Source: Pseudovibrio ascidiaceicola (lineage in GTDB: Bacteria > Pseudomonadota > Alphaproteobacteria > Rhizobiales > Stappiaceae). Taken from it: a DNA stretch of 64,000 nt. Position numbers and translations under genes: made by a program. The number at the start of each line of letters is the position of its first letter. The first letter of the stretch is position 1. The notes beneath the pieces were generated by a model, which worked only from the letters and a program-made list of their open reading frames with translations, was not told where the DNA came from and made no database searches. Shown here piece by piece: positions 232 through 15,323 of this stretch. The stretch lies in NCBI RefSeq assembly GCF_900114245.1, contig NZ_FOSK01000005.1, forward strand, positions 1 to 64,000, in the 5' to 3' direction.

Positions 232-255
232 AGAGTGAGGCCGAAGCCTCACTCT
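232..255 (-). terminator. Hairpin terminator of the giant-protein operon
   Basis: A perfect 10-bp inverted repeat (AGAGTGAGGC / GCCTCACTCT) encloses a 4-base loop, which reads TTCG on the minus strand. It begins 6 bases after the stop codon of the 1250-codon gene. The run of T after it is poor (AAGTTT), so it is a weak intrinsic terminator or a transcript-stabilising 3' hairpin. The perfect stem and the position support a role at the operon end. Confidence 0.7.
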
Positions 256-261
256 GTTCCG

Positions 262-3200
262 TTACTTCTCGACATTGGGCATGGAGAGCCAGCCGTCCCG
301 GATGACGGCGGGGGCGCTGCCGAGTTGTGGGCTGGTGTCCGGGGTGAGCAAATGAGAAGTTACCTCCCAGCCAGTGCCTTTGACCTCCACCCACTGCCAT
401 TGTCCCTGTGTACCGCCGGGCAGGGGTAGGCTGATCGCATCTGCTGGCGTCAGGATCGGACCAACCCGGAAGTTGGCAGACATGTTTTGCAGGGCAGGGG
501 CGATCATTTGCGGGGTGAGTTGAGCCCAGTTTGCAGGAAGCAATGTGGATGTCACCGGGATCTGACCGCGTGGATCAACCAGCAGAACCAGTTCAACATA
601 CGCGGGAGCCTGTGTGCTGCTCACTGTGATGGGAATATCCGCACCGGAGTTGATGTAGGTTCCCGTTGTCTCAGGTGTTGATCGGGTCAGTGTTTGCTTC
701 ACCGACTCTGCTAAGGCATTTGTCAGTTCCTGCTGATAGTTCTTTGCCGTGATTAGCTGGCTGAAATCGCCATTGACATAGCTGCCCAGAACACCGGAGG
801 CTGCCAGTTCAAAGTCGCCAATGGAACAGGTCGTCTGATACCCTTGTACCGGAGATGAGGGTAAGCTGGTCTCGGTGAGATCAGCAGGGTCCAAAATCAG
901 CGGGCCTTGCTGTGTTAATGCCAATCTGGCGCTGACCACGGCGATGGGAGTTCCCAGCATTTCCTGTAGATTGCCATTCAGCGGCTGACCGCCTTTGGCG
1001 CTCATAGCCCAGCTGTTGAGCGCTGCAAGTTGCAACAGCCCTTCCAGTGCGGCGTCACTTTCTGAGAGCTGGGTTGCCAGCAAGCCGGTCAGCATCTCTT
1101 CAAACCGTGGGTTTTGAACTGTTGGAGGCGTTCCCAGAGAGATCGGCTGTCCGGGGGCACTTTCCCAACGCAAACCAGCGCTGTTTTCAGAGTAGATGGA
1201 CCGCACTGTGCCTGCGGGAGTGCCGTCGGCTTCGAACACCATCATGGACTGTTCCAGCCGGTTTGGCAGAAGCCAGCCGATGATGGGGGTAGAGGCACTG
1301 GCAGAGTTGACAGGGACGGAGACTGAGGTCTCCTCAGAGTCGTTAAAGGTTGCTGCGCTCATCAGCGTGAGATCAAGCTTTGCCGGTTGCGGCAAAGCTG
1401 GCTCCAATGCAGCGAAGTTCGCGCCGGAATCTGAGTGCAGTGCCGGTGGAATTGTCACTGTCGGATTGGTCGTCTCGCCATCATCAATCACGTTCAGAAC
1501 CTGACCAAAGGCGTCTGCGATGTAAACGCCGGTAAACTCAAAACGCCCCGCTCTTAAAGGTGCATACAGTTCCGTATTTGTTGGAACAGCAGAGGATGCC
1601 GAGAGGATTGCCTGCCGAATGTCAGGGTCATCAGAGGTGAGCATGGACATTTCCTGCTTGCGGCCCAAAAACGCCTCTTCAAAACCACTCATGGTCTGAA
1701 TGAGCACGTCAAAGCCAGTGCCCGTTGCTTCGGCATCAGTCAGGAACGATTGTTCCTCTGCAGTTAGCTTGCTGAACTGCGGTGACGACTTGATGAAGTT
1801 TTGCAGTCTGGAGGAAAAGACACCAAAAGCGGTGCCATTCAGGATTGTCTGGCCGCTCAGCTCAAACGGGCCGCTGCCTGTAGACCCTAAAGACTGTGAT
1901 GTGTCCGGGTACCAGTTTGCTTTCCAATCCAGAACCAAAGGGATCCATGGTGCTGAGTAAGACAGGTTCACACCAACCTCAGAAGGGACGACACCAGCAA
2001 AGTACTGGGGAGCCTTGGCAACCGGATCGTGATCTTCATCGCTGCCGGTGGTTGGATAAATCGTTTGCAGTGCGGTGATGATCGCATTACCGAATGTTTC
2101 CAGCTCGCTGGCCGTAAGCTCTTGTCCGGCTTCACTTGCAATTAAGCTCGCAATGTATTGAGCATTGCCCGGATTGAGCAGGATCGCTTCTGCCAGAAGC
2201 CATTGATACTCAACGGGAAGAAGCGAGGAACTGGTAATCCCGAGGTCGCTAAACAAGGTAGAGGCTGACACGCTTCCAGAGATGGGATTGCTGCTGTAAT
2301 CCGATGTCCAGGAGAATGTGAATTTGCTCAGGGTTTCTCCCGTTACCCGCACCTCCAGCATGGTTTTCTGGGTTGCTGAAGCTGCGGTGACTAAGGTCTG
2401 GCCTGCGATCCCTTTGCCTGCAACAATCACTGTCGGGTCATTGGGAGACATGAACTGTGAAAGCGGGCTCTGCAAAACCTGAAATGTAGAACCAACGCTG
2501 GTTTCCAGCTGACCTTTGTGATCATTTACGGACTTGGTTGCGTTTGTAAGTTTGGTGTTTTGATCATCCACTTCAGACTTAAAGGCAGCCAAAGCAGTTG
2601 TGTAAGGGGTTGCGTCAAACCCGTTGTTGTTTGCTGTTTTTGCTTGTTCTTCAAGGTAGGCAACCGCAAAAATCCTCCAGTTTAGATCTGCAATGTACTT
2701 AGAGATTTGGTCTACCTCTGCCTGTGACTGGTTGAGCTCTACCAGAAGCGAGACCTGAGCATCAGTAAGATTTACGGAAATGGCGGAGCTGCTTGCAGGC
2801 AATGTGCCGGGAGCTGCATTGTTAGCGTTGGCGGGGCGAACAACCCACTGGGTTCCTCCGGGTTTGGGAGAGAAGATGGCGGCTTGAGCCGTGGCATCAA
2901 AGTTGACGGTGCTGCTGTACGTATCGGCTGGAAAATTGCCGAACACGGACGTCAGGAGATCATTCTTCTGAGTGCTTGTAACTGCTGTTGAGGCCGTTGT
3001 TTCGCTTGCTGTGTTTGCTGCAAGCAATGCTGCCAAAGCCTGACTGGAGCTTTGCCCGACAGACAAAGCCAGATCCGTGACCCCGGAAGACCCAGGAGTG
3101 TAATCGTGGTCTTTGCCCTGCCACGGCAGATTTAGGTAGACGCTGTTACACAGCATCTGGCTGGGGTAGATCCATTCTGTGGTTGCTGAGGAAGGGTATT

Positions 3201-4014
3201 CTGCGGCAAGCCACTTTTCCCAATCCTGTTTTGCTTCGGTCTCGCCGCCTGCAAGTGTCCAGGCAAACTCGGTCATGATCTGCTGCCACAGAGCTTCCGC
3301 ATCCTCTGCAGTCGACTTTTGGGAAACACCCGCGAAGGGGTCCTGCGTGACAGGCTGATACCAACCAATCACCATGTAGCCTACAGTTACGCTTTCCGCA
3401 TCATAGTTTGTCAGCGGATCATGGAAGGAGAGCACGTTTTGTGTGCCGCTGTAAGCCGCCGCCCACCGGATGGAACCGGGGGCACTTGCAGTGATATCAG
3501 CGGCATCAGAAAGCGGGTCGGCATTCCATTCAGCCAATGGCATCGCGCGGCCCAGACCTTTGGCCACGAGCTGAGGTGTGTCTTTTGAGTTGGCAGCTGT
3601 GTTGAGCAGCCATTGTGCCTCCGTTTGCGGTGTGACCTCACTTAGATAGTCGCTTTCGATGATCCAGGAGGCCAACTCAGGCTTTGCAGCCGAAGATGTC
3701 GAGAGAATGCGCGTAACCAGCCAACGGTTTGGCAGGTCTGGATAGCTCATCACCCCTTCTTCGTTTTGCGTGCCATGGCGCAGTGCCTTAGGTACGGTGA
3801 AGTGCAGGTGTGCACCTGTTTCCAATGCGTAATTTGGAGAAACTTCGGTTGTGATGGCGGACTTGCCGTTCAGCAGGTCGTCATAGTTCAGGCCCAGCTT
3901 GGCCCAGTTTACCTTTTGATTGGGCGTGCCAACCAGCAAACAATCCATCTGCATTGGAACAATCATGCGTGGTCCGCTTACCACGGGAGAGACTGCGGTT
4001 TCATTGTACGTCAT
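262..4014 (-). CDS. Large uncharacterised protein (1250 aa), third gene of the giant operon
   Basis: I do not recognise a named family or function. The start overlaps the stop of the preceding 700-codon gene as ATGA, so the two are probably translationally coupled. No signal peptide, membrane helix or enzyme motif is visible. The first ~110 residues contain blocks (HLHFTVPKAL, then PNRWLVTRI) that I remember from other large uncharacterised bacterial proteins, often written there as LHWALP and PNRWLV; this is recollection, not a search. Around residues 420-500 there is a heptad-like, charged stretch that could be coiled coil. The rest is Ser/Thr/Ala-rich and looks beta-rich, with long low-charge segments. 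The strict gene order suggests that it works with the DUF6603-type giant and the 700-aa protein, perhaps as subunits of one assembly, but that is inference. Confidence 0.9.
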   Translation of the reverse strand: MTYNETAVSPVVSGPRMIVPMQMDCLLVGTPNQKVNWAKLGLNYDDLLNGKSAITTEVSPNYALETGAHLHFTVPKALRHGTQNEEGVMSYPDLPNRWLVTRILSTSSAAKPELASWIIESDYLSEVTPQTEAQWLLNTAANSKDTPQLVAKGLGRAMPLAEWNADPLSDAADITASAPGSIRWAAAYSGTQNVLSFHDPLTNYDAESVTVGYMVIGWYQPVTQDPFAGVSQKSTAEDAEALWQQIMTEFAWTLAGGETEAKQDWEKWLAAEYPSSATTEWIYPSQMLCNSVYLNLPWQGKDHDYTPGSSGVTDLALSVGQSSSQALAALLAANTASETTASTAVTSTQKNDLLTSVFGNFPADTYSSTVNFDATAQAAIFSPKPGGTQWVVRPANANNAAPGTLPASSSAISVNLTDAQVSLLVELNQSQAEVDQISKYIADLNWRIFAVAYLEEQAKTANNNGFDATPYTTALAAFKSEVDDQNTKLTNATKSVNDHKGQLETSVGSTFQVLQSPLSQFMSPNDPTVIVAGKGIAGQTLVTAASATQKTMLEVRVTGETLSKFTFSWTSDYSSNPISGSVSASTLFSDLGITSSSLLPVEYQWLLAEAILLNPGNAQYIASLIASEAGQELTASELETFGNAIITALQTIYPTTGSDEDHDPVAKAPQYFAGVVPSEVGVNLSYSAPWIPLVLDWKANWYPDTSQSLGSTGSGPFELSGQTILNGTAFGVFSSRLQNFIKSSPQFSKLTAEEQSFLTDAEATGTGFDVLIQTMSGFEEAFLGRKQEMSMLTSDDPDIRQAILSASSAVPTNTELYAPLRAGRFEFTGVYIADAFGQVLNVIDDGETTNPTVTIPPALHSDSGANFAALEPALPQPAKLDLTLMSAATFNDSEETSVSVPVNSASASTPIIGWLLPNRLEQSMMVFEADGTPAGTVRSIYSENSAGLRWESAPGQPISLGTPPTVQNPRFEEMLTGLLATQLSESDAALEGLLQLAALNSWAMSAKGGQPLNGNLQEMLGTPIAVVSARLALTQQGPLILDPADLTETSLPSSPVQGYQTTCSIGDFELAASGVLGSYVNGDFSQLITAKNYQQELTNALAESVKQTLTRSTPETTGTYINSGADIPITVSSTQAPAYVELVLLVDPRGQIPVTSTLLPANWAQLTPQMIAPALQNMSANFRVGPILTPADAISLPLPGGTQGQWQWVEVKGTGWEVTSHLLTPDTSPQLGSAPAVIRDGWLSMPNVEK

Positions 4015-6113
4015 GCTGCTTCTCCATTGGTGTTATTCTGGGAAGTTGAGGACCAGCTGAAGGTGAAACTGCCAGCAGGCTTGATCAGCTGAATAGCAAA
4101 CTGACCGGATGTCAGGTCTGAAGTGTCTTGCAATATGCTGTCGTTTGCGGCGATGACTGCAGCCAACTGCCGGGCAGTTGCATCCACGCTCACCACGCCT
4201 GTGCTGCCTGTGCGCATGGACACAGCAACGTCGTCAGCACCGGTGCTTTCACCTGGAATTTCACTTCCGGCATTGGAGCCGGAAATGTAGCGGGCGGGAA
4301 TCACATATCCGTCGTTGTGAGAGAAAATCCCGAACTGCAAATGTCGTTCTGGTTGAGTGAAGCTGACACTCTTCGGGACGCCATAAAACATACCAAAAGC
4401 AACTGAGCTGGAAAGGTTCTGCTTTTGCAGGCAGACAAGAGGATTATTGTTGGCAGCTTTTGCTGAAACGGTCATCTTTGGAAAGTCAGTGACGAGTTTG
4501 GAGCGAAGCAGGTACCCTGTGATGGGCTCAACCCAACCTTCTCCATTGTTCGCCTGTGTCATGGCCTGCGTGACAGTGGTGTGCGCGCTGCCCTGATGAT
4601 GTGCGAGGGAGCTGTCTTCCAAAATCCCAACACTCAACGCACCCATGAGGAAGTAGTAGATCCAGTTCTGGTCCACGATGAAGAAACGCAATTGCTCAGC
4701 GTCCAGTATGCTCGCATTCGGAACCAGATAGGAAAATGGCAGGCCGGTGAGCTGCGCCTGACGGGCCAGCCAGTTTTGAATGCTGACCGGTGGAGGAGGA
4801 GGTGTGCTCTCAGAAGATGTTGCTCCACCAGAACTGAGATAATCCCGCGCTTCGCTATACGCGTTGTTGGTGAGGTCCAGCGCTTGACTGACTGCATCAG
4901 AACGCCAGCCTGCAATCTGCGTCAGATATGAGGGAGATGACAGCGCCAGCAGGCGGCCAACTTCAAAGGCTGCAGCGTATGAAACGTCAAAGATGCCATT
5001 TGACTGATTGTATCGCAGCAGCTGATCACTATGCAAAACAGCAGGCAGGATGCCGGAGGTTTGCGGCGGTACGATCAAGTCTTCTTTTGTGGCAACGGGC
5101 GCAAAGGGGCCGCGATACCATGCTGTCATGGTTTCGCCAGAACGCATGTTCCAGGTGAGGGGGACAAAACCCTGCTCCAGAATTGTCCCGGCTTGCCCTT
5201 CAAGACTACTGTCAATCTTGAGCATGCCGGTACTGCCGTTTTCAGAGATCTCCTGAAAGTTCGAGCAAAAATCACCGGTGTCTGTGACTGTGCCCATTTG
5301 CCAGGAGTAAAGCACAGCGACCCGCACAGCGGTTTTAGCCTGCGCAATGCTTTGGCTGCCACCTGGCAAGTAATCACCAAGACCTTCAAGGCTGATCAGA
5401 AAGACAGAGTTGTTCTTACCGGTTTGAGGGAGCCGGTTTGCGACGATGACGGAGTAGGTTTCTGTACCAGCTTCTCCAGTTGCGGTGCCATCATCGGTGC
5501 TTGTTCTACGCACATGAGCAAGAAGCCTCATGTCCGCTGCAGAGGGCATGTTGGCCGTAAACACATCCTTTGGAATGTCGAGCATCTGGATCTTTTCTTC
5601 CTGCTCCTGTGTGGTTGGGGCAGGAGAGATGACAGGCGCCAGAATGTCTGCCGAAGACGGGTTGATGAGTGTGCCGACAGTGCCGGAAGTAACAGGCTGA
5701 CCAGCCCCGCCGAGTTCGTCCTCGGTCAACACCACAAGCGCCAGCCACGGTGCATTTTCCGATGTGTTTGGTACTGTCAGCTCACTTTCCCACGGAAGAG
5801 TAGGAGAGCTGAGCGTGATGTAGGGCAGTGTTTCCTGCCAGGCACCGGGGGAGCGGGATGGAGGAAAGACCTCCACCACCTGATCCGTGCTCATGGAGAG
5901 CTTGGGGCCTGTGACAGAAAAATCTAGCGATGTGGAGTAGGCTGTACATTGATCGTCGTTCGACGAGCTGACTGCACAGGTTCCATCCTGCTTCACGGCT
6001 TGATCAACCGTCAGAGTGTAGTTGCCCGATGGAAGGGCTGGTGCATCCTTGTCGTAGATTTCAACTTGTCCAGCAGTCAGGCCAGACGAGGTGTTGGAGT
6101 CTTGTTCTTGCAT
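4011..6113 (-). CDS. Uncharacterised protein (700 aa), second gene of the giant operon
   Basis: No named family could be assigned. It begins 27 bases after the 3060-codon gene and ends overlapping the next start by 4 bases, so it lies centrally in a tight operon. It has no signal peptide or membrane span. The N-terminal third shows a beta-rich domain with a GPKLSM block, a VFPPSRSPG block and a LPWE block (residues ~70-130). Near residues 440-490 is a stretch with the blocks LPFSYLVPN, QLRFFIVDQNW and GALSVG. I recall an equivalent pattern (FNYLVP, ESIRFF, GALSIG) in uncharacterised proteins of myxobacteria, cyanobacteria and actinobacteria, without a function. The proline-rich PPPPP run at ~430 probably separates domains. 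A structural or binding role beside the giant protein is more likely than catalysis, because no catalytic motif stands out. Confidence 0.9.
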   Translation of the reverse strand: MQEQDSNTSSGLTAGQVEIYDKDAPALPSGNYTLTVDQAVKQDGTCAVSSSNDDQCTAYSTSLDFSVTGPKLSMSTDQVVEVFPPSRSPGAWQETLPYITLSSPTLPWESELTVPNTSENAPWLALVVLTEDELGGAGQPVTSGTVGTLINPSSADILAPVISPAPTTQEQEEKIQMLDIPKDVFTANMPSAADMRLLAHVRRTSTDDGTATGEAGTETYSVIVANRLPQTGKNNSVFLISLEGLGDYLPGGSQSIAQAKTAVRVAVLYSWQMGTVTDTGDFCSNFQEISENGSTGMLKIDSSLEGQAGTILEQGFVPLTWNMRSGETMTAWYRGPFAPVATKEDLIVPPQTSGILPAVLHSDQLLRYNQSNGIFDVSYAAAFEVGRLLALSSPSYLTQIAGWRSDAVSQALDLTNNAYSEARDYLSSGGATSSESTPPPPPVSIQNWLARQAQLTGLPFSYLVPNASILDAEQLRFFIVDQNWIYYFLMGALSVGILEDSSLAHHQGSAHTTVTQAMTQANNGEGWVEPITGYLLRSKLVTDFPKMTVSAKAANNNPLVCLQKQNLSSSVAFGMFYGVPKSVSFTQPERHLQFGIFSHNDGYVIPARYISGSNAGSEIPGESTGADDVAVSMRTGSTGVVSVDATARQLAAVIAANDSILQDTSDLTSGQFAIQLIKPAGSFTFSWSSTSQNNTNGEAA

Positions 6114-6140
6114 TGGAAAATTCCTTTTCTTCGTCTGGTT

Positions 6141-9100
6141 CTAGTCAGCGCTGCGCGTCAGCGCGATCTGGCCTGCCGCTTTGCTCTTCGCCTTACCTGA
6201 GACAGGAGCGGCGAATGAACCGAGGGACTGCTTGGACCAGGTGGCTTTGAGCTCTGACGGAGACTGCGTGCTGGCAAACACGCCCTTGATGGTCGGGCTT
6301 GCTGTTGTACGTAGACGCACCGGCTGATCAGTTGTGCCTTCAAAGAAGAAGACTTTCGCCTCACCCAGATCGAGCGTTTGCGAAGGCGTGGCCGGTTTCC
6401 AGCCGCCAACCTGAGTGCCATGCTTGATCAGGATGTCTTGCACAGACACCTCACCAGCTCCAACCGTGATCGCGATGGACCGTGCGCCGCTCGGGAAGCA
6501 GGTCTCAAGAGTGCCATTGATGCTTGTGCCATTCACGTGCTCCAGCACGTCTGCATTGATGACATTCTTCATCAGAACGGGACCGAGCTTGAACCGAGTG
6601 GTTTGCTCAAAGGCTCCGCGGGTGAAGACCGTGCAACCTTCGCCGATCAAGCGACCGTCTCCGGCCAGCATCAGCTTTTGATCGATCATCCAGCCATCAA
6701 GGTGGAATGGAGCGCTACCCTGACCAGCTTCACAGAACACCGCTACACGGTATGTCTTAGCTGGCAAGGCCATAGACTGACCGCGGGTTTCTGTTTCAAG
6801 CAGAACACGGCCCGCCCGATCCAATGCAACAACTCTGAGCGATACGCCATTGAACTCGCTGAGATCGAGGTGCAGCGGTGATGTGTTCTTTGACGCCTGA
6901 AAGAGGTAAGCACGACCTGACTCTGCGGAGACCTCAGGTATCCTGTAGTGGAACGGTGTTAGACTGCGCCATGTCCAACGGACACGTTTTCTGGATGGCA
7001 AACCGCCAGAAGCTTCAGTTACTCCACGAAGTTCTCGTAAACTGCCATATGCAACCAGATCCACGCTGCCTTTTCCTGTGTGCTCCAAGACCTCCGATGA
7101 GCCAGAGGTGTCGGTGGAAGGTTGGGCAATTGCCGGCGGTGTACTGGAGGCCACCGGCGGTGTGTCCACATAAGTGCCGATGGTTGCCAGCTGTGGAGGC
7201 GCAATCATGATCTGATCGGCATACTCCTTCATGATACTCAGATCCGGGTTGTCTATGGCAGTCAGATTCACACTGTTCAGTGCCGTGCTGATTGCGGATC
7301 TGGTCTGCTCAACACTTGTCGATGCGATGGTCGACTGGATGACATCAAACGCATTGTCCTGTGCTTCCGGCTGATCTCCGTTGATCTGCGGAATATCCGC
7401 AAATGACAGCGGCGCATCCGAGCTTTGTGCACAGGTTGGCTTGTAAGCCGAACTCATCGTGATTGGGCCTACACCACCAGTTGGTTGAGACACAGTGGTA
7501 CCGATGGCCAGTCCAACAATTGCGTCTTTGATGACTGCATCTTCGTCAGATGAACCAGCTGTCGAACTGCCATCAGACCAGAGAGCGGACGGCACGCCAT
7601 TGGTGATTGTCTCCACAGTAAAACCAGATGTTTCTTCTGTTCCGTCTGCTGATGTGATGGAAACGGTCAGCTCCGTATCTACGCTGTCTTTCCAACCCAC
7701 AGGCTTCACGCCGATAGGAGCAGAACCGTTGAAGGTCTGGGAGGTGTTCGTGAACGTGGCCGAGGTCGCCGGAATAGCCGAGGTGATCTTGAACTCTGCG
7801 GTCTTGGCCTGCACCGTATTGGCCGCTGCACCTGACACCTGACCTGCCTGAACAGCCGCAATCAGTGGGACGATCTCGTCGTCTTTTTGAGCATTCTTAG
7901 GCAGAAATTTTTGTGCAAATGCATCCCACGACAAGGCTGCCTGACTGCTTGATCCACCATCTCCAAACGGAATGGAGAAGGAAATGATCACCCAGTCTAC
8001 ATAGACCGAACCTCCAGTTTGTGGGCCATACAGGTTCAGACCAGCTCCGAGAGATGCAGAGAAAGTTGAGGAACCGATCCAGTAGTCGATGGTGTAGGAA
8101 ACACCTACATCCACGTGCACATCAATGTTGTAGTAGAACGGCGCCCAACTGATCAGGAAGTCCGCACCAGCATCAAACCAGGCATGAAGTTCACCGGAAT
8201 GGAACTGTGCACTTAGATCAGCACCGGCCATGATGGCACTTGGGGTGAGGGCAAAATAGGTGCCCCCGGTGATGGATGTGTCATCATTGATGCGCCAGTC
8301 AAAACCAACCCGTGGCACAGCTGGATAGTAATCCGGCGGTGTGAAAGCAGGTGAGTATCCGCCCAGAGTGATGACAAAATCACCGGCATTCTCGTTGTCG
8401 CCAAACCATGCTCTGACCGCAAAACCACCGGTCAAATGACAGTCATGAGAGAGCAGGAACGAGCTTGGAGAGAGCTGGCCTGTGAGTGCAAACTCACCGT
8501 CAGAGGGATCAAAGCTCATGGTGACGCCCAGCTCGATATAGGCCAGAGCCTTATCGAAGGAGGCGTTTGGCGGCATGGTCGCCTTTGCCAGACCAATTGC
8601 ATCAAATGAGAAGCTGGCGCCAAAGTTCGCAATGAGCATGGCAAAGGTATCCACCAGCTCAAAGCTGGAGACATTCATGCCAGCTGCGCCCCAGTAATTA
8701 CCGATTTGGGGAGGGATGACCTCATCAAATTTGGCCAGCACCTGACCTAGGGAACTTCCCTCCGCTATGAATGTGGGATCAGAGACCGCCTGAATGAGAG
8801 GGAAGCTGTCCACTTCACTCACATCCGGCAATGTCAGGCCACGGTTGACTGAAAAGCCACCGGCAAAGCCTTGAATGGAGAAGGCTGGCGGTCCGCCAAG
8901 CGCGCCACCGGTGCGTACGTCACCAAACACAAACAGTGACGTGGTTTGGGTTTCTCCATCTGTTGGATTGGCAGGCATGAGGGCATAGGAGCCAACCGCT
9001 GTAAGACCCAGAAGACTGGTGGACGCGTTGATCTCGCCGTCATAGCTGATGATGTTGTCACGGGTTTGCTTCAGCAGATCACCGGAAAGGGAAACCGTGC

Positions 9101-12100
9101 CACCTTTGAAGGCTAATGCAAGGCCGGAAAGATCCAGACCATACCCATCGAAGTTGGTTGGGTCCGTGATGGGAATAGTAATATCAAGTCCCATCACCTC
9201 CAGCGTCACAGCCGTGGTTTCAATGCCGCCATCAAACAGCATCCCGAGGCTATGTGTGTCGGCGTGCCAATCGGCACCGATACCATCCACTTGCAAGGGA
9301 CCAAAACTACGTTGAACTGGCAGGTAAATTTCTGAAACTGGTTTGCCGTCTTGTTCTAGTGCGGCGCCAAAGGTGCCGTCTGAGATCCAACCCAAAGTTG
9401 CATCAAACGCGGGGTTTACAGCAGGTTTAGCGCCTTGAGCACTTGAGGACGAAGACCCTAGCAAGTTTTGAGCAACTGGGTTTGCACTGGAACCTGTGAC
9501 GGAACCGGGGCTGAGTGCAAATGCAATGTTGACCAGATCACCTCCGGCGCCATAGCTTTCAACAGGATCACCTTGTCCAAACTTCAGAGCAAGAAGACCC
9601 TGAGCGGTGATACCTCCTAGAGAAAAACGCGAGAGGTCAATGAGTGGTTTGCCGTTTTTCCCATCCAGAGACGCACCAATATAGGCCGCTGAAAACTGCA
9701 TGTGCTCAAAATCTGGCCCGTCATCAGGTACACTGAGCGTGACGGCCAGACCGGGCTTGTAGTCGTCAGTGTTGGATTTTCCGGCCTGCTTAATCCAGTC
9801 ACCTGCTTCTGAGTTACCAAGCTGAAGGGCAACACCGCTGTTTTTGATCGAAATACTCGGGACCACGAGTGATAAAGTGTACTCTGATGTTGTCTCCGAA
9901 CCGTCACTGGTGTCTGAACTGATTTGCAGTTTGCCGTCATCTGGTAAGGATACAAGAGTAAGTGGAGCACCAGCAGTTAATGTGCCTAAAATTGAGTTGA
10001 TCAAAGAGCTAAGTACGCTGCTGACCGTTTTATCTGCCATTGCCTCCGGAGATGCGGGTATGTAGAGGCCATCATCCTCGCTGATCAATCCTATGGACCT
10101 CAGAATAGTGCCGGGAGCTGGGATCTTTCCACCCAATAGCTTTTGAGTGAGCCACGCCTTTGTGACACTTGCGTTGAGCAAACCAAGTGCTGCGTAACGC
10201 GGCAGAACATGTAAGGCCAGATCTTCTAGCCATGCATCTATACCACCGCCTGCAGTTCCATCTGCACCGGGGAATGGCACGGGCAGAAGTTGTGCATTGT
10301 ACACCTCATAGGCACTACCAGCTCCAATGGGATTGAAGATAAGAGAGAAACTCTTGCTGTTAGACCAGTCCACCGCGATGCGCGGACCGGTGTTACTAAA
10401 CAGGTCAGCTTCTACACTCAGCCCCATATCGAATTGAATGTCACCACCGGTCGCAAGGGGATAGCCAACTCCGGTTTCAGAGAGTGTAACCTGAATACCC
10501 GATCCGGCATCAAATCCAGCCATAGCCCAAAGACCAACCAGACCATCTTTACTACCAAAAGAAATCTGAGAGGAACCACTCTGATCCAGTTTGTAAATGA
10601 CCAACCCGTCATGCGCGGACACTCCTTCCAACTCAGTAGAGAGGAGTGTGGCAACCGCTTGTGCTGTAGCTGAAGCATTTACGGTAGACAGCCTCTGCTT
10701 GATCCATTCGATCGCAATTTCTTCCAGAGACTGGCCGCTATCTGCTTCAGTCGCTGACTGGATCAATTCATCAACAAGTTCAGAAATTTGAAGAGCTTCC
10801 GCAGCGGTTTCGAGTTTGTTGATAAAGTCTGCAGCACCGCTAGTTTTCAGTTTACATAGCAACTCGGTTGTTGCCTCTAAAATGAGGTTTTGGGCCGCTT
10901 GTGCTGCTACATCCTCTGCAAACTCCATCCAGCCGTTAAAGGGGATAAGACTCAAGGTTGGGCCTTCATGCCGCCCTACAGACAACATGAAGGTGTTATC
11001 AAAGCCGGCGGTCAGTTCGAATTGAGGAGCCGTACTTGAGATAGAACCAGACAACGCGATCTGAGCTGTCGGAACCGGAACCAAATCAGGCGTTAAAGCC
11101 AGCCCGAATGAGAGTTCTGAGATTGAGAAGTCATCAGAAAGCTGCAGTTCTTCCGCCAACCGTGGTGAGATAGAAAACTGATTGGCATCTACATCTGCGG
11201 TAAATACCAGTTCAAGATTGTATGGCAGGCCTGCAACCGTTACGCCGTTATCTGCGGGCCTCAGATAAATGCCGGAACCGGGTGTACCCTCTGCTGGAAG
11301 TTGCGAAAGCAAACGGCTCAGGCCTTCCACATTAAAGACGCCGTTGAGGCCTATTTGAGTTTTCTCCAGCAGCCAATCACTAGGATTTTCAATGAACTGT
11401 ATTGGCAATGTGATGTAAGTACGATCATCTTCACCTGTTTTGGTAAGGCCGAGGGTATCGGCAACACCCATTGCAACGGGATGAGTACTGAGGACCGTGT
11501 CTAAAGCGTCCGCAACGACACGACCCAGCAACATGGCTGGAACAGTTTTTTCAAGATCCTGTAAGAAGGTGTTCGCATCAAATGGATAAAGAGTGACAAG
11601 TGTCGGCTTCAGTGAGCCCTCAGAGGAACCAAGCATTACAGCGGCTGAAAATTCAGCACTTTCAAAACTGTTGCTAGAAAGGGAGAGCGTCAAACCACTC
11701 TCGATCTGGGGTGTGATTAGATCCACTGATGAGGTCAAACTTTCACTGGTCAAATCGAAATTGATGGATCCACCCAACTGAAGGGAGGAACCGAATGCGA
11801 CCGGACTGGAAAACTCCAATTTAAAGTCATTTGCATTCAGGACCGTCAGTTCCAGTGGACCAAAACTTGCTGTGGCTGTGGATTGACCAAAAGCAGCAGC
11901 TAGAGCAGCTCTTTTCTCTGAACTGTTCATCAACGCAGAAAGTTGCGTTGGGAGGAACAATGCAGGATTTGAAATCAATGCCAGAATTGAGTTCGGGACA
12001 GGGAGGTAGCCATCCTCCTTGGAGGTGATCAGGTCAAGAGCTGCTAGAACAGCCAGCAGTTCCTCTGGAACACTAGGCCATTCAAGTCCGGACACAGACT

Positions 12101-15100
12101 TGATGAGGTTGATCAGATCCTCTCGTTGCTCAACCTGCTCCAGCAGATAATTTCCCGCCTCTTTAAAGAACGAAGTCGGAGCGGCTGTGAGTTGCAGCCA
12201 TGCTTGAGCGTTCAAAGCGAACTGTCCATCCACCATTACTGCAAGGCCAGCTGTTTCCAGTAGTCCGCCTAGCTTGGAGAGTGTTTCATTACCGCCATAA
12301 GCGCCCACAAGTGCTGCAACGCCTTTGTTCAATAGGGTTAGCAGTACTTCGCTATGGACGGCTGAAAGAACGGTTGCTGGATTGTCAAAATCTATTCTGA
12401 TGGGCGTATTCTCATCAGCAGGGGTCACCGACAAAATTGGCGCCATAGCCGGGCCCTCTGAGGTGAGCACCAATGTGAGACCTATCTGGGCGGAGCTCAA
12501 TGTGTTCTGGATGAGATCTCCATTTAGACCCGTCAAACCGGCAAGAAGGGTGACAGAAGGCGTGTGGGAGTCAGTCGAAGTCGAGCTGGAGTACAGCTCA
12601 GCAGAAGTCTCAACGGAGATAACAATGTCGCCCAGAGTCTCTGGAGAAAAAGTCCGTTGCAAACCAACGATAACACCGTCTCCTGCGTCCTCCTTGTCCC
12701 AGATAGCCAGATTTATGCCCGTGGACGTCGGCAATGGGACAAGGTAGGGATCACCATTGCTTGAAGTTGAGATCTGCGGCGCGGTTGCATCATCACTTAA
12801 AGCCCAGCCAAGTAAAGACAGTGCGGCTTGTGCCTGTGTTTGCTCAGAAAGCAGACTATTAATCTGCCGGTTGATCGCCTCCAATGGATTGGTGAGGATA
12901 TCAGCGCCAACGCGTGGCATACCTTCAGGCCACGTGATGCCCGTAGGCATGTTCTGTGCAGTTGCTCCGCCAAGCAGACCTAACCACCCATCCAGCAGCA
13001 AGCCTGCGCGTGTGCCTGTGCGCAGCAAAGCCAAACCGCTAATCCCAGCGAGCAAAGGAGCAAAAGTGGCTGCACCCGCACCGGATAATTTATCGACCCA
13101 GGACACACCTTGTGCGAATTCCAGGTTGCTGCCACTTGCGACAACCGTGTCACCGTCTTTCAACTGAGATTGAGCCACATTGATCTGCCAGCCAAACCCA
13201 TTTTCTGATGACCAGCTGACCTGCGCATCAGCCCCTTCAATACCAAGGGTAATGCCGGAGACCGCGGAGGTGGTGACGCCTTCTGGCAATGCAATCTGAA
13301 AGCTCAACGTATTGAAAGCATTTGCGCCTGACAGTACTTGATCGGCGCTGGAAGTTTCCAATGTGAGAAGGTCGGCACCAAGCGAGATGTTCAGCGGGGT
13401 TTCAGAACTCAGTTCAAAATCTGCTCCGACCTGAAGTCCGACAATCAGATTTGCATCTTCTGTATAGGCACGCAGATAAGCTTTGATCTGAGCGCCCATG
13501 AGCGGGAATAGCCAGGGATCCTGCGAAGTTCCGGCTGCAGATGATATCGAGACCGCTTGTGAACCACTGGTCATCAAGGTTGCTATCATCTGCGCAATCC
13601 ATTGGGCAGGTAGTGCACCAGAGATTGATTGATCCGCATTAAGGACCGCATAATACCACTTCTGCAGAGCTCCTAAGGGATCTGTAATGTTACTTGCAAA
13701 CTCATCCGTGCTGAGAGGAGGTGCAAGATCCTGCGCCCAACCACTGCTGGTGGGAGCAGCAAGGCCTATCAAGACAGAAAGAGCAAAACCAGGTGTACCC
13801 GCAGATGTGCCCAGTAAATCGTGGAGCTTTTCGCTCACCGCAGATGCCAGATCACCAGCAACGACACTTGCAACCTTCTCCGGCTGCAACAGATTGAGAG
13901 AGGCGTGTGAGGAGCCGGCAATTTCAACGGAAACAAGCTCAAACTTCGGCAAGAGGTTTACATTCTCACCGGATGGAGTGAGTTCAATCCCCAGCTCCAG
14001 TGATCCAACCGCAAAGGCTTTGCCATCATATATCGCACTGATGAGGTCCGAGCCTTGGGTTTTGCTCTCAAGGGTAAGCTGAGCAGCAAATGGTGCAGGT
14101 GCAACAGAAAGGGCACCGCTGTTGAAACCAAGATCAACAAACGTGAGCGAAGCCGACGGAACAAGTTGAGCTTCCGATGTTCCCAAAGCGACGGCATCTG
14201 CATCAAACGCCAAACCTGGCAGCAAGTGAGTTGTGCCATCATTACTAGTCGTTGCCTGAAGTATCAGGTATAGCGTTCCAACGCTTCCGAAGGTCTGGAG
14301 GGCATACTGATAGGGGGCTGCTGGAGTTCCTTCGCCAGAGGCCTGTGTAATTGTGCCAGTGATCAAGCCAGTCAATGCAGCGCCCCAAGCATTGAGCGTT
14401 TTGGTATCACTAGAAATTTGCAGGAGCCAATCGACGAAGGGCTTGGTCAGGTCTTCACTGTTCTCAAGCAACGAGAGCCAGTCAAGGGCAGGGACCTCTC
14501 CGATATCAGCAACCTGTCCGCCAAAGCCTATTGCAGGGAACAGTAAGGATATCTCAGGCGAGTCTGCTGGCATGACCTGCGCCACCGCCGCGATGAGAAG
14601 CCCTCGTACAGCTCCCATAATTTCTTCATTAGAAACGGCTTGGAAATCGGCTAGGTTAACATCGTTGGCCTGTGCCTCTCCTGGAATCTTAAGTTGAAGA
14701 ATTTCAAGACTAATGTCGACGGGAGAACCTGTTGTATTCGCAGGAGCCATAGCGACGCTCATTTGAAGGCCATCTAATGAAAAGCCTGCGACTTCGACAA
14801 TCGGTCCCGATGAACTGGCAATCTCGACACCCAGCACAATACTCTCGTCCGGATCTGTCAGCGCCACCTCAGGCGATCCATTCACAATGATAATCGGAAG
14901 CAGGCCCCAAATTCTGGCCTGCAGATCGGTGGAGATATTTTGAACTGTCTGGAAACCCACCCCATATGTCAGTCCGCCCTGAGTTGCTGGTCTGGAAATG
15001 AGGTATGGGCCGGACACATCTGCTGTAGTTTCTGCATCATTTGCTTGCAGCAGCGGATACCAGGTGCCGAGGCTATCTGTTGAAGCACTGGGAACATTGA

Positions 15101-15323
15101 GAGTAGCACCACTGCGTGAACCAATAAGTTTTTTGATCAAGGCAGGTAGATTGCTCTGGGGATTTTTAAGACCGTCAGCAAGATGAGAGATTGGATCAGA
15201 AAACCAGTCCTCCACCAGCGAGTATTCAGAGGAACCTTCCTCTGTTTGGATGAGTAAACCGGCGAGTACAGCCAGTTGCAGTGTGGCAGCATCTAGGTCT
15301 TTTTCATTTATTGTTATTGTCAC
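6141..15323 (-). CDS. Giant DUF6603-type protein (3060 aa), first gene of the operon
   Basis: One uninterrupted frame encodes about 3060 residues, far larger than any other protein here. There is no signal peptide or transmembrane helix. The first ~1,200 residues contain degenerate modules made of an amphipathic helix pair followed by beta-rich segments; equivalent positions fall at about W299, W556 and Q820. Roughly residues 2000-2450 match my recollection of DUF6603: blocks GFAGGFSVNRGLTLP (~2155), FELVDTFAML, YFALTPSAIMAG and WFDAGADFLISWAPF (~2380). A SALW block near residue 2580 also recurs in that group. The last ~260 residues look like small beta domains. The function of DUF6603 is unknown. 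The ribosome site before the ATG is poor, so low or regulated expression is possible. Alternatives such as a surface adhesin are weakened by the absence of any export signal. Confidence 0.92.
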   Translation of the reverse strand: MTITINEKDLDAATLQLAVLAGLLIQTEEGSSEYSLVEDWFSDPISHLADGLKNPQSNLPALIKKLIGSRSGATLNVPSASTDSLGTWYPLLQANDAETTADVSGPYLISRPATQGGLTYGVGFQTVQNISTDLQARIWGLLPIIIVNGSPEVALTDPDESIVLGVEIASSSGPIVEVAGFSLDGLQMSVAMAPANTTGSPVDISLEILQLKIPGEAQANDVNLADFQAVSNEEIMGAVRGLLIAAVAQVMPADSPEISLLFPAIGFGGQVADIGEVPALDWLSLLENSEDLTKPFVDWLLQISSDTKTLNAWGAALTGLITGTITQASGEGTPAAPYQYALQTFGSVGTLYLILQATTSNDGTTHLLPGLAFDADAVALGTSEAQLVPSASLTFVDLGFNSGALSVAPAPFAAQLTLESKTQGSDLISAIYDGKAFAVGSLELGIELTPSGENVNLLPKFELVSVEIAGSSHASLNLLQPEKVASVVAGDLASAVSEKLHDLLGTSAGTPGFALSVLIGLAAPTSSGWAQDLAPPLSTDEFASNITDPLGALQKWYYAVLNADQSISGALPAQWIAQMIATLMTSGSQAVSISSAAGTSQDPWLFPLMGAQIKAYLRAYTEDANLIVGLQVGADFELSSETPLNISLGADLLTLETSSADQVLSGANAFNTLSFQIALPEGVTTSAVSGITLGIEGADAQVSWSSENGFGWQINVAQSQLKDGDTVVASGSNLEFAQGVSWVDKLSGAGAATFAPLLAGISGLALLRTGTRAGLLLDGWLGLLGGATAQNMPTGITWPEGMPRVGADILTNPLEAINRQINSLLSEQTQAQAALSLLGWALSDDATAPQISTSSNGDPYLVPLPTSTGINLAIWDKEDAGDGVIVGLQRTFSPETLGDIVISVETSAELYSSSTSTDSHTPSVTLLAGLTGLNGDLIQNTLSSAQIGLTLVLTSEGPAMAPILSVTPADENTPIRIDFDNPATVLSAVHSEVLLTLLNKGVAALVGAYGGNETLSKLGGLLETAGLAVMVDGQFALNAQAWLQLTAAPTSFFKEAGNYLLEQVEQREDLINLIKSVSGLEWPSVPEELLAVLAALDLITSKEDGYLPVPNSILALISNPALFLPTQLSALMNSSEKRAALAAAFGQSTATASFGPLELTVLNANDFKLEFSSPVAFGSSLQLGGSINFDLTSESLTSSVDLITPQIESGLTLSLSSNSFESAEFSAAVMLGSSEGSLKPTLVTLYPFDANTFLQDLEKTVPAMLLGRVVADALDTVLSTHPVAMGVADTLGLTKTGEDDRTYITLPIQFIENPSDWLLEKTQIGLNGVFNVEGLSRLLSQLPAEGTPGSGIYLRPADNGVTVAGLPYNLELVFTADVDANQFSISPRLAEELQLSDDFSISELSFGLALTPDLVPVPTAQIALSGSISSTAPQFELTAGFDNTFMLSVGRHEGPTLSLIPFNGWMEFAEDVAAQAAQNLILEATTELLCKLKTSGAADFINKLETAAEALQISELVDELIQSATEADSGQSLEEIAIEWIKQRLSTVNASATAQAVATLLSTELEGVSAHDGLVIYKLDQSGSSQISFGSKDGLVGLWAMAGFDAGSGIQVTLSETGVGYPLATGGDIQFDMGLSVEADLFSNTGPRIAVDWSNSKSFSLIFNPIGAGSAYEVYNAQLLPVPFPGADGTAGGGIDAWLEDLALHVLPRYAALGLLNASVTKAWLTQKLLGGKIPAPGTILRSIGLISEDDGLYIPASPEAMADKTVSSVLSSLINSILGTLTAGAPLTLVSLPDDGKLQISSDTSDGSETTSEYTLSLVVPSISIKNSGVALQLGNSEAGDWIKQAGKSNTDDYKPGLAVTLSVPDDGPDFEHMQFSAAYIGASLDGKNGKPLIDLSRFSLGGITAQGLLALKFGQGDPVESYGAGGDLVNIAFALSPGSVTGSSANPVAQNLLGSSSSSAQGAKPAVNPAFDATLGWISDGTFGAALEQDGKPVSEIYLPVQRSFGPLQVDGIGADWHADTHSLGMLFDGGIETTAVTLEVMGLDITIPITDPTNFDGYGLDLSGLALAFKGGTVSLSGDLLKQTRDNIISYDGEINASTSLLGLTAVGSYALMPANPTDGETQTTSLFVFGDVRTGGALGGPPAFSIQGFAGGFSVNRGLTLPDVSEVDSFPLIQAVSDPTFIAEGSSLGQVLAKFDEVIPPQIGNYWGAAGMNVSSFELVDTFAMLIANFGASFSFDAIGLAKATMPPNASFDKALAYIELGVTMSFDPSDGEFALTGQLSPSSFLLSHDCHLTGGFAVRAWFGDNENAGDFVITLGGYSPAFTPPDYYPAVPRVGFDWRINDDTSITGGTYFALTPSAIMAGADLSAQFHSGELHAWFDAGADFLISWAPFYYNIDVHVDVGVSYTIDYWIGSSTFSASLGAGLNLYGPQTGGSVYVDWVIISFSIPFGDGGSSSQAALSWDAFAQKFLPKNAQKDDEIVPLIAAVQAGQVSGAAANTVQAKTAEFKITSAIPATSATFTNTSQTFNGSAPIGVKPVGWKDSVDTELTVSITSADGTEETSGFTVETITNGVPSALWSDGSSTAGSSDEDAVIKDAIVGLAIGTTVSQPTGGVGPITMSSAYKPTCAQSSDAPLSFADIPQINGDQPEAQDNAFDVIQSTIASTSVEQTRSAISTALNSVNLTAIDNPDLSIMKEYADQIMIAPPQLATIGTYVDTPPVASSTPPAIAQPSTDTSGSSEVLEHTGKGSVDLVAYGSLRELRGVTEASGGLPSRKRVRWTWRSLTPFHYRIPEVSAESGRAYLFQASKNTSPLHLDLSEFNGVSLRVVALDRAGRVLLETETRGQSMALPAKTYRVAVFCEAGQGSAPFHLDGWMIDQKLMLAGDGRLIGEGCTVFTRGAFEQTTRFKLGPVLMKNVINADVLEHVNGTSINGTLETCFPSGARSIAITVGAGEVSVQDILIKHGTQVGGWKPATPSQTLDLGEAKVFFFEGTTDQPVRLRTTASPTIKGVFASTQSPSELKATWSKQSLGSFAAPVSGKAKSKAAGQIALTRSAD

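Follow-up and report, generated by a model that had tools for sequence, protein, structure and literature searches.

Several described bacterial systems place a variable enzyme beside an invariant core. In extracellular contractile injection systems (eCIS), a variable effector gene lies next to the core. In Tc and other large toxin complexes, large core proteins are encoded together with a variable enzyme. Lamassu, Avs and CBASS follow the same layout, and conflict systems are typically built from a fixed core to which a modular recogniser and a modular enzyme are added. The first 64,000 nucleotides of contig NZ_FOSK01000005.1 of Pseudovibrio ascidiaceicola (assembly GCF_900114245.1), hereafter the window, carry three large adjacent genes, which we name A, B and C. 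Their joint presence and conserved order across distant bacteria make it well supported that they form one conserved unit. At homologous loci they are linked to two further genes, D and E. We propose, with a probability of about 0.42, that the fixed core A-B-C, a swappable recogniser D and a swappable effector E make up a conflict or delivery machine, a released particle that would deliver or present E. The three genes lie head-to-tail, all on the minus strand:

6141..15323, minus strand: gene A, a giant of 3060 amino acids (aa) with a GTG start and a DUF6603 core (open reading frame (ORF) list)
4011..6113, minus strand: gene B, 700 aa, ATG start (ORF list)
262..4014, minus strand: gene C, 1250 aa, ATG start (ORF list)

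The trio is inherited together. We searched 299 Pseudomonadota genomes, drawn evenly across the phylum, for DUF6603 and with profiles of B and C. Each of A, B and C matched 9/299 genomes, these were the identical nine, and the genes were neighbours in 9/9. A second sample, 321 genomes from the class of genome G190, shared at least G190 and G031 with the first and was searched for A and B only. Here, A was found in 6/321 genomes, and B in five of those six and in no other genome, one of the B matches (G496) being partial (E 1.2e-7) and located at a contig end. For the genome lacking B in the profile scan (G565), a direct ORF search shows that the gene next to A, on its downstream side, is a divergent B (E 7.3e-10).

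A B alignment of 28 rows, scanned against one genome per GTDB species, detected 106 relatives; we retained the 80 best loci, which come from 13 phyla or candidate groups. As revealed by A, B and C profiles in all frames, the trio is complete in 67/80 loci, while six hold A and B, five B and C, and two B alone. In the 78 loci holding more than one of the three, all hits are on the same strand (78/78). A contig or flank end cuts many of the 13 incomplete loci, but not necessarily all; B stands alone with 10 kb on each side in L038 and with 10 kb before it in L024, and L004 has no A within 10 kb before B. The order of the genes varies by rotation only, being A-B-C in 51 of the complete loci, C-A-B in 16, and never the other cyclic order. 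L034 and L073 read B-C-D-E, and L071 reads B-C-D-D followed by a beta-rich ORF that runs off the fetched end and is presumably the start of A. In the cyanobacterium Hormoscilla (L019:5033-9972), A is apparently split into ORFs of 945 and 665 aa.

An earlier sequence-only reading of the window had suggested that the three genes form a conserved assembly, and had named as its refutation homologues that are scattered, never adjacent, or of known unrelated function. This refutation fails, and the adjacency across 13 phyla or groups supports a conserved unit. The same reading overlooked the linked variable genes D and E.

The cassette is an accessory unit that probably travels between genomes, since the B tree mixes phyla and DUF6603 occurs in 2/16 genomes of the genus, own genome included. 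In this quick tree (25/77 inner branches open), 29 label changes compare with a minimum of 12 for 13 groups, and six Pseudomonadota rows need six changes. Actinomycetota do cluster (5 changes, 0/500 shuffles as low), and three Myxococcota form one clade.

The gene following C, D, is modular. A same-strand ORF of at least 200 aa, starting between -200 and +400 bases from the C end, is present in 54/66 loci with enough sequence; these candidates include A itself (L050) as well as some shadow frames and unrelated genes. An immunoglobulin (Ig)-like domain of about 130 residues, often present twice, is common to 43/54 candidates, a count that is not independent because the profile was iterated on these same proteins. 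The protein ends were surveyed in 77 of the 79 members of the D cluster (two were dropped). They match Laminin_G_3 (8), phage Collar (8/77), Hemopexin (7) and Peptidase_S74 (5/77), as well as Kelch and other propellers, and tail-fibre PHROGs match up to 9/77 members. No tail-fibre-type receptor-binding protein was found in the window itself. In G091 (L093:15178-17820), the ORF after C opens with a Sec-like signal peptide, as judged by eye, unlike the 54 D candidates.

Further genes were observed near D. In one Treponema and two Bacillota loci (L049:9874-12260, L067:8443-10797 and L075:15413-17854), a radical SAM/SPASM protein is encoded behind the post-C gene or forms a fusion with it. PADLOC viperin models match three neighbour proteins, a count without protein names. 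In G385 (L112:2236-3786), the cassette is followed by a long same-strand gene series including a Lipase_3 protein (E 7.6e-21).

Preceding A, gene E encodes a variable enzyme, present beside the core in other genomes and absent from it in the window. A same-strand ORF of at least 150 aa ends between -90 and +60 bases from the A start in 39/66 A genes that are not at an end; the candidate of L050 is C, those of L015 and L025 are D-like, and those of L028, L046 and L051 are maybe shadow frames. At 11 loci (L005, L008, L013, L017, L022, L047, L048, L055, L069, L076 and L079), mutually related proteins with a metallo-beta-lactamase (MBL) fold lie directly before A, and G190 has an MBL-fold protein too, below the Pfam cut-off there. 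Other loci encode Exo_endo_phos (narrowly over the cut-off in L003, under it in L060 and recognised solely by motif in L011 and L078), Lipase_3 (L052, L064), a Bd3614-type deaminase (L020), Peptidase_M91 (L030) or PhoD (G565). The E proteins of L012, L018 and L043 belong to one common unnamed family. With E up to 0.05 as the limit, Pfam gave nothing for those of L018, L042, L057 and L072, and a single sub-threshold match for that of L068. Enzymes of the E type are common in toxin arsenals.

We also searched 82 neighbour proteins, chosen from 131 cassette-adjacent ORFs in flanks of at most 10 kb and including six members of the MBL cluster. The PADLOC models LmuA and Avs1a each match 6/82 and RTasMBL matches 5/82, these being counts without protein names, and a PHROG labelled only "tail protein" matches 6/82.

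Two plasmids were observed to carry parts of the cassette in other company. On a Paenibacillus polymyxa plasmid (L101:1-21382), genes for baseplate-V, DUF4280 and GH-E nuclease proteins lie at a distance of about 8-9 kb from a DUF6603 gene and B, and the gene after B is a putative C. A Streptomyces plasmid (L103:2969-18214) has conflict-system genes, CHAT and CATRA, at about 5 kb from a DUF6603 gene and B.

The core proteins themselves are poor in known families. The DUF6603 region that had been proposed for the giant is real: A matches PF20248 with 452.7 bits (E 1.9e-135; residues 2003-2497, profile positions 1-469 of 502), passing the curated Pfam cut-off of 27 bits, and at least 2263 proteins contain a DUF6603-related region. 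Besides this, searches of Pfam, NCBIfam, PADLOC and PHROGs that admitted E values up to 1 assigned no family to any of the three; they gave one sub-threshold Pfam match of C (E 0.21). No ATPase or nucleotidyltransferase family was found in the trio with Pfam, NCBIfam and PADLOC. B has at least 662 homologues, and C has 33 found directly (query excluded) with further ones found by profile in linked loci; neither has a Pfam entry. The motif blocks that had been noticed were located in C (PNRWLV, residues 95-100) and in B (RFFIVDQNW and GALSVG). In the open literature that we searched, a scope which leaves subscription journals and preprints aside, DUF6603 is named in no paper, and no paper on such a cassette is among the matches listed.

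The following regions of A were delimited:

7134..9506, minus strand: conserved core, residues 1940-2730, modelled with AlphaFold2 as a long beta-meander, mean predicted local distance difference test (pLDDT) score 82.1
7833..9317, minus strand: DUF6603 (PF20248) region, 457.1 bits
12603..14561, minus strand: residues 255-907, degenerate repeats about 255-265 residues apart (hhalign)
6144..7172, minus strand: C-terminal part, residues 2718-3060, outside the stretch aligned in most non-Pseudovibrio homologues (alignment ends)

The A of the window is of the large type. About 2000 residues lie N-terminal to its core; most other loci, among them some with a truncated or split A, have roughly 20-1055. 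In G235, G277, G031, G070 and G246, DUF6603 is found within open frames 3251-3518 codons long. In the hhalign comparison, residues 255-418 pair with 509-679 and residues 543-653 with 807-907 (probability 96.9, E ~1e-10), and 4/351 window pairs of the repeat scan score above 80. Homologue alignments stop at or before residue 2722, except for L002 and L046.

The A core is predicted to be a long beta-meander or sheet. Its top structural matches are apolipoprotein B (ApoB), the best Foldseek match with a low TM-score, and outer-membrane barrels. Identity to ApoB in the structural alignment is about 10%, and A has no sequence match to any solved chain. In VIA-align Z, ApoB and porins are tied (13.2 and 13.7), and the barrel-type row 5t3r_D has a root-mean-square deviation (rmsd) of 9.1; therefore, we take from these matches a long sheet only. 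The AlphaFold2 model of B (pLDDT 87.5) has no significant structural match. The trio had been described as free of membrane spans, which holds for B and C (no 19-residue window above 1.6 on the Kyte-Doolittle scale), while A has two such windows. A has an isoelectric point of 4.2, a grand average of hydropathy of +0.16, 4.3% Lys+Arg, 2 Cys per 1000 residues and high Ser+Thr. Its low Cys, low Lys+Arg and high Ser+Thr, together with the lectin and fibre ends of D, would fit an extracellular site.

The sequences establish the trio as a unit and its modular neighbours in other genomes, and the machine is a proposal built on them. In this machine, A would be a giant scaffold, a long and partly two-faced beta-meander that is lengthened by the repeats in large versions, with B and C as its invariant partners in an obligate core. 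D, in many carriers, would serve as a swappable recognition or tip protein, which combines the Ig-like domain with a variable lectin, propeller or tail-fibre-like end, and E as a swappable enzyme acting as effector. Most likely, the parts would assemble inside the producing cell into a particle that is released independently of Sec, for instance through lysis. D would then bind the target, the A sheet would engage or cross its membrane, and E would act there. We favour a released particle because of the outward-type D ends, the toxin- or effector-type E enzymes, and an A sheet that possibly engages lipids. A bolder form of this proposal is doubtful. It would see a so far overlooked class of delivery particles in at least 13 phyla or groups. 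The vehicle would consist of a giant ApoB-like belt, A, and of B and C, two invariant partners lacking known relatives; D would direct it, E would be its cargo, and it would have no relationship to phage tails, Tc toxins or known secretion systems.

Several observations weigh against the released particle. A crude signal-peptide test was positive in 0/67 A, 1/79 B, 1/60 C, 0/54 D and 0/39 E proteins, compared with 59/636 other ORFs. No sheath, tube, baseplate, holin or lysin family was seen in the 82 neighbour proteins among the matches listed (25/63 Pfam families), and neighbours of the MBL type look like effectors that act against phages inside the cell. Only part of the A core shows the two-faced pattern clearly, and a strand-alternation test gives C about the same score as A. 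At least 27/66 A genes have no adjacent E, given that C, D-like proteins and possible shadow frames are among the 39 candidates. Furthermore, neither D nor E was found adjoining the Pseudovibrio trio, and the D-domain profile is silent in its genome and found in 2/10 proteobacterial carriers. Its silence is weak evidence, since the profile also misses 6/8 other carriers of the first sample; in three of those missed (G091, G235 and G070), the ORF after C is of a different make from D.

How the Pseudovibrio copy ends is relevant here, and one feature marks the site:

232..255, minus strand: hairpin directly past the C stop codon, 10-bp stem and 4-base loop

The sequence-only reading described three large genes with tight junctions and a closing hairpin, and both ORF coordinates and fold energy agree: 27 bases (6114-6140) separate A and B, B and C overlap by 4 bases, and a 58-nt piece with the hairpin at 232-255 folds at -24.8 kcal/mol (z -4.55), with 0/200 shuffles as stable. 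The hairpin has a poor T-run and is missing from a terminator scan, which gave 16 sites versus 15.7 expected. It is probably the operon end. The closest named protein relatives show identities of 89% (B) and 95% (C) in Pseudovibrio sp. Ad26, and of 72% (B) and 67% (C) in P. axinellae. In P. axinellae (L002), C is followed by a hairpin at the equivalent site, as judged by eye, and then by a convergent gene, so there is no D. In the window, base 1 is also contig base 1 of the 5.8-Mb assembly, 261 bases past C; the adjoining sequence is on another contig or missing, and what follows C in this strain is thus unreadable. As far as it can be read, the Pseudovibrio copy may be a minimal form, may use parts encoded elsewhere, or may have the roles of D and E carried by the extra parts of A.

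Few export signals, together with the PADLOC matches of the MBL-type neighbours, are the reason for retaining an intracellular defence of the abortive-infection type, which we consider unlikely. Here A-B-C would be the sensor or scaffold, D would recognise a component of the invader, and E would be unleashed inside the cell. The layout is that of Lamassu, Avs and CBASS, LmuA, Avs1a and RTasMBL are matched among the neighbours, and the patchy presence (2/16 in the genus, 9/299 in the phylum) is in line with it. The PADLOC matches lend some support to the earlier suggestion of a defence-related complex. However, the trio itself has no PADLOC match at E up to 1 and no ATPase or nucleotidyltransferase family, and most D ends belong to types known from outside cells (LamG, hemopexin, Kelch, tail collar).

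Another earlier suggestion, lipid handling, gains some support from the ApoB match of the modelled A core. With the lipases among E, this match keeps a carrier of lipid or hydrophobic cargo under consideration, at a low likelihood. In such a carrier, lipid would be wrapped or channelled by A, a beta-belt of apolipoprotein type capped by B and C, while D would address the carrier and E would process the cargo. However, the tie with porins and the rmsd of 5t3r_D apply here too, 13 earlier strands of the A core differ by 0.05-1.18, and no Vitellogenin_N lipid-transfer domain was found with Pfam at E up to 1. Moreover, deaminase, M91 and nuclease-like E genes are unfit for lipid processing. Very improbable is a surface or structural assembly, such as an S-layer-like sheath or an adhesive coat with D as surface ligand and E as surface enzyme. 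While the composition of A, B and C and the lectin-like D ends would suit it, export signals are almost absent, A-C contain no anchor family, presence in the genus is patchy, and the E enzymes are of toxin type.

Among known systems, eCIS have a variable effector gene beside an invariant core, as the cassette does with the putative effector E in other genomes, and a similarity to tail-collar, tail-fibre and S74 proteins is seen in some of the D ends. Unlike eCIS and phage tails, A, B and C contain no tail family (sheath, tube and baseplate included) in Pfam and PHROGs, B and the A core were not found on viral contigs, and the A core was not found in phage records. With Tc complexes it shares large core proteins and a variable enzyme, but Pfam, searched at E up to 1, detected none of the Tc, RHS and VRP1 domains in the trio, and the cassette enzyme is a separate gene. 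An MBL-fold enzyme beside a large conserved core, and neighbours matching LmuA, Avs1a and RTasMBL, recall Lamassu, Avs and defence-associated reverse transcriptases (DRT) with MBL-fold effectors; in contrast to these and to CBASS, the trio is without a PADLOC match, even with E values up to 1 admitted. The beta-belt of ApoB, a large lipid transfer protein (LLTP), is likewise a long beta-sheet in a giant protein and the best Foldseek match of the A core, but structural identity is low and the lipid-transfer domain is missing. A holds DUF6603 over most of the profile; the Pfam entry gives no function and covers none of B, C, D and E.

We regard the cassette as new because no named family includes B or C and none of the known systems corresponds to the trio; its logic of scaffold, recogniser and effector is familiar. 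A block of about 15 kb, inherited in about 2-3% of sampled genomes (9/299 and 6/321) and in many phyla, with two families outside Pfam, has thus far escaped notice to a considerable extent. As a weapon or delivery device, it would stand as a new architecture next to contractile systems and Tc toxins and would make sense of many D and E genes that are now unassigned; as a lipid vehicle, it would be what apolipoprotein particles are elsewhere, in bacteria. In both cases, the conserved order A-B-C-D-E places an unknown domain within a system that can be tested.
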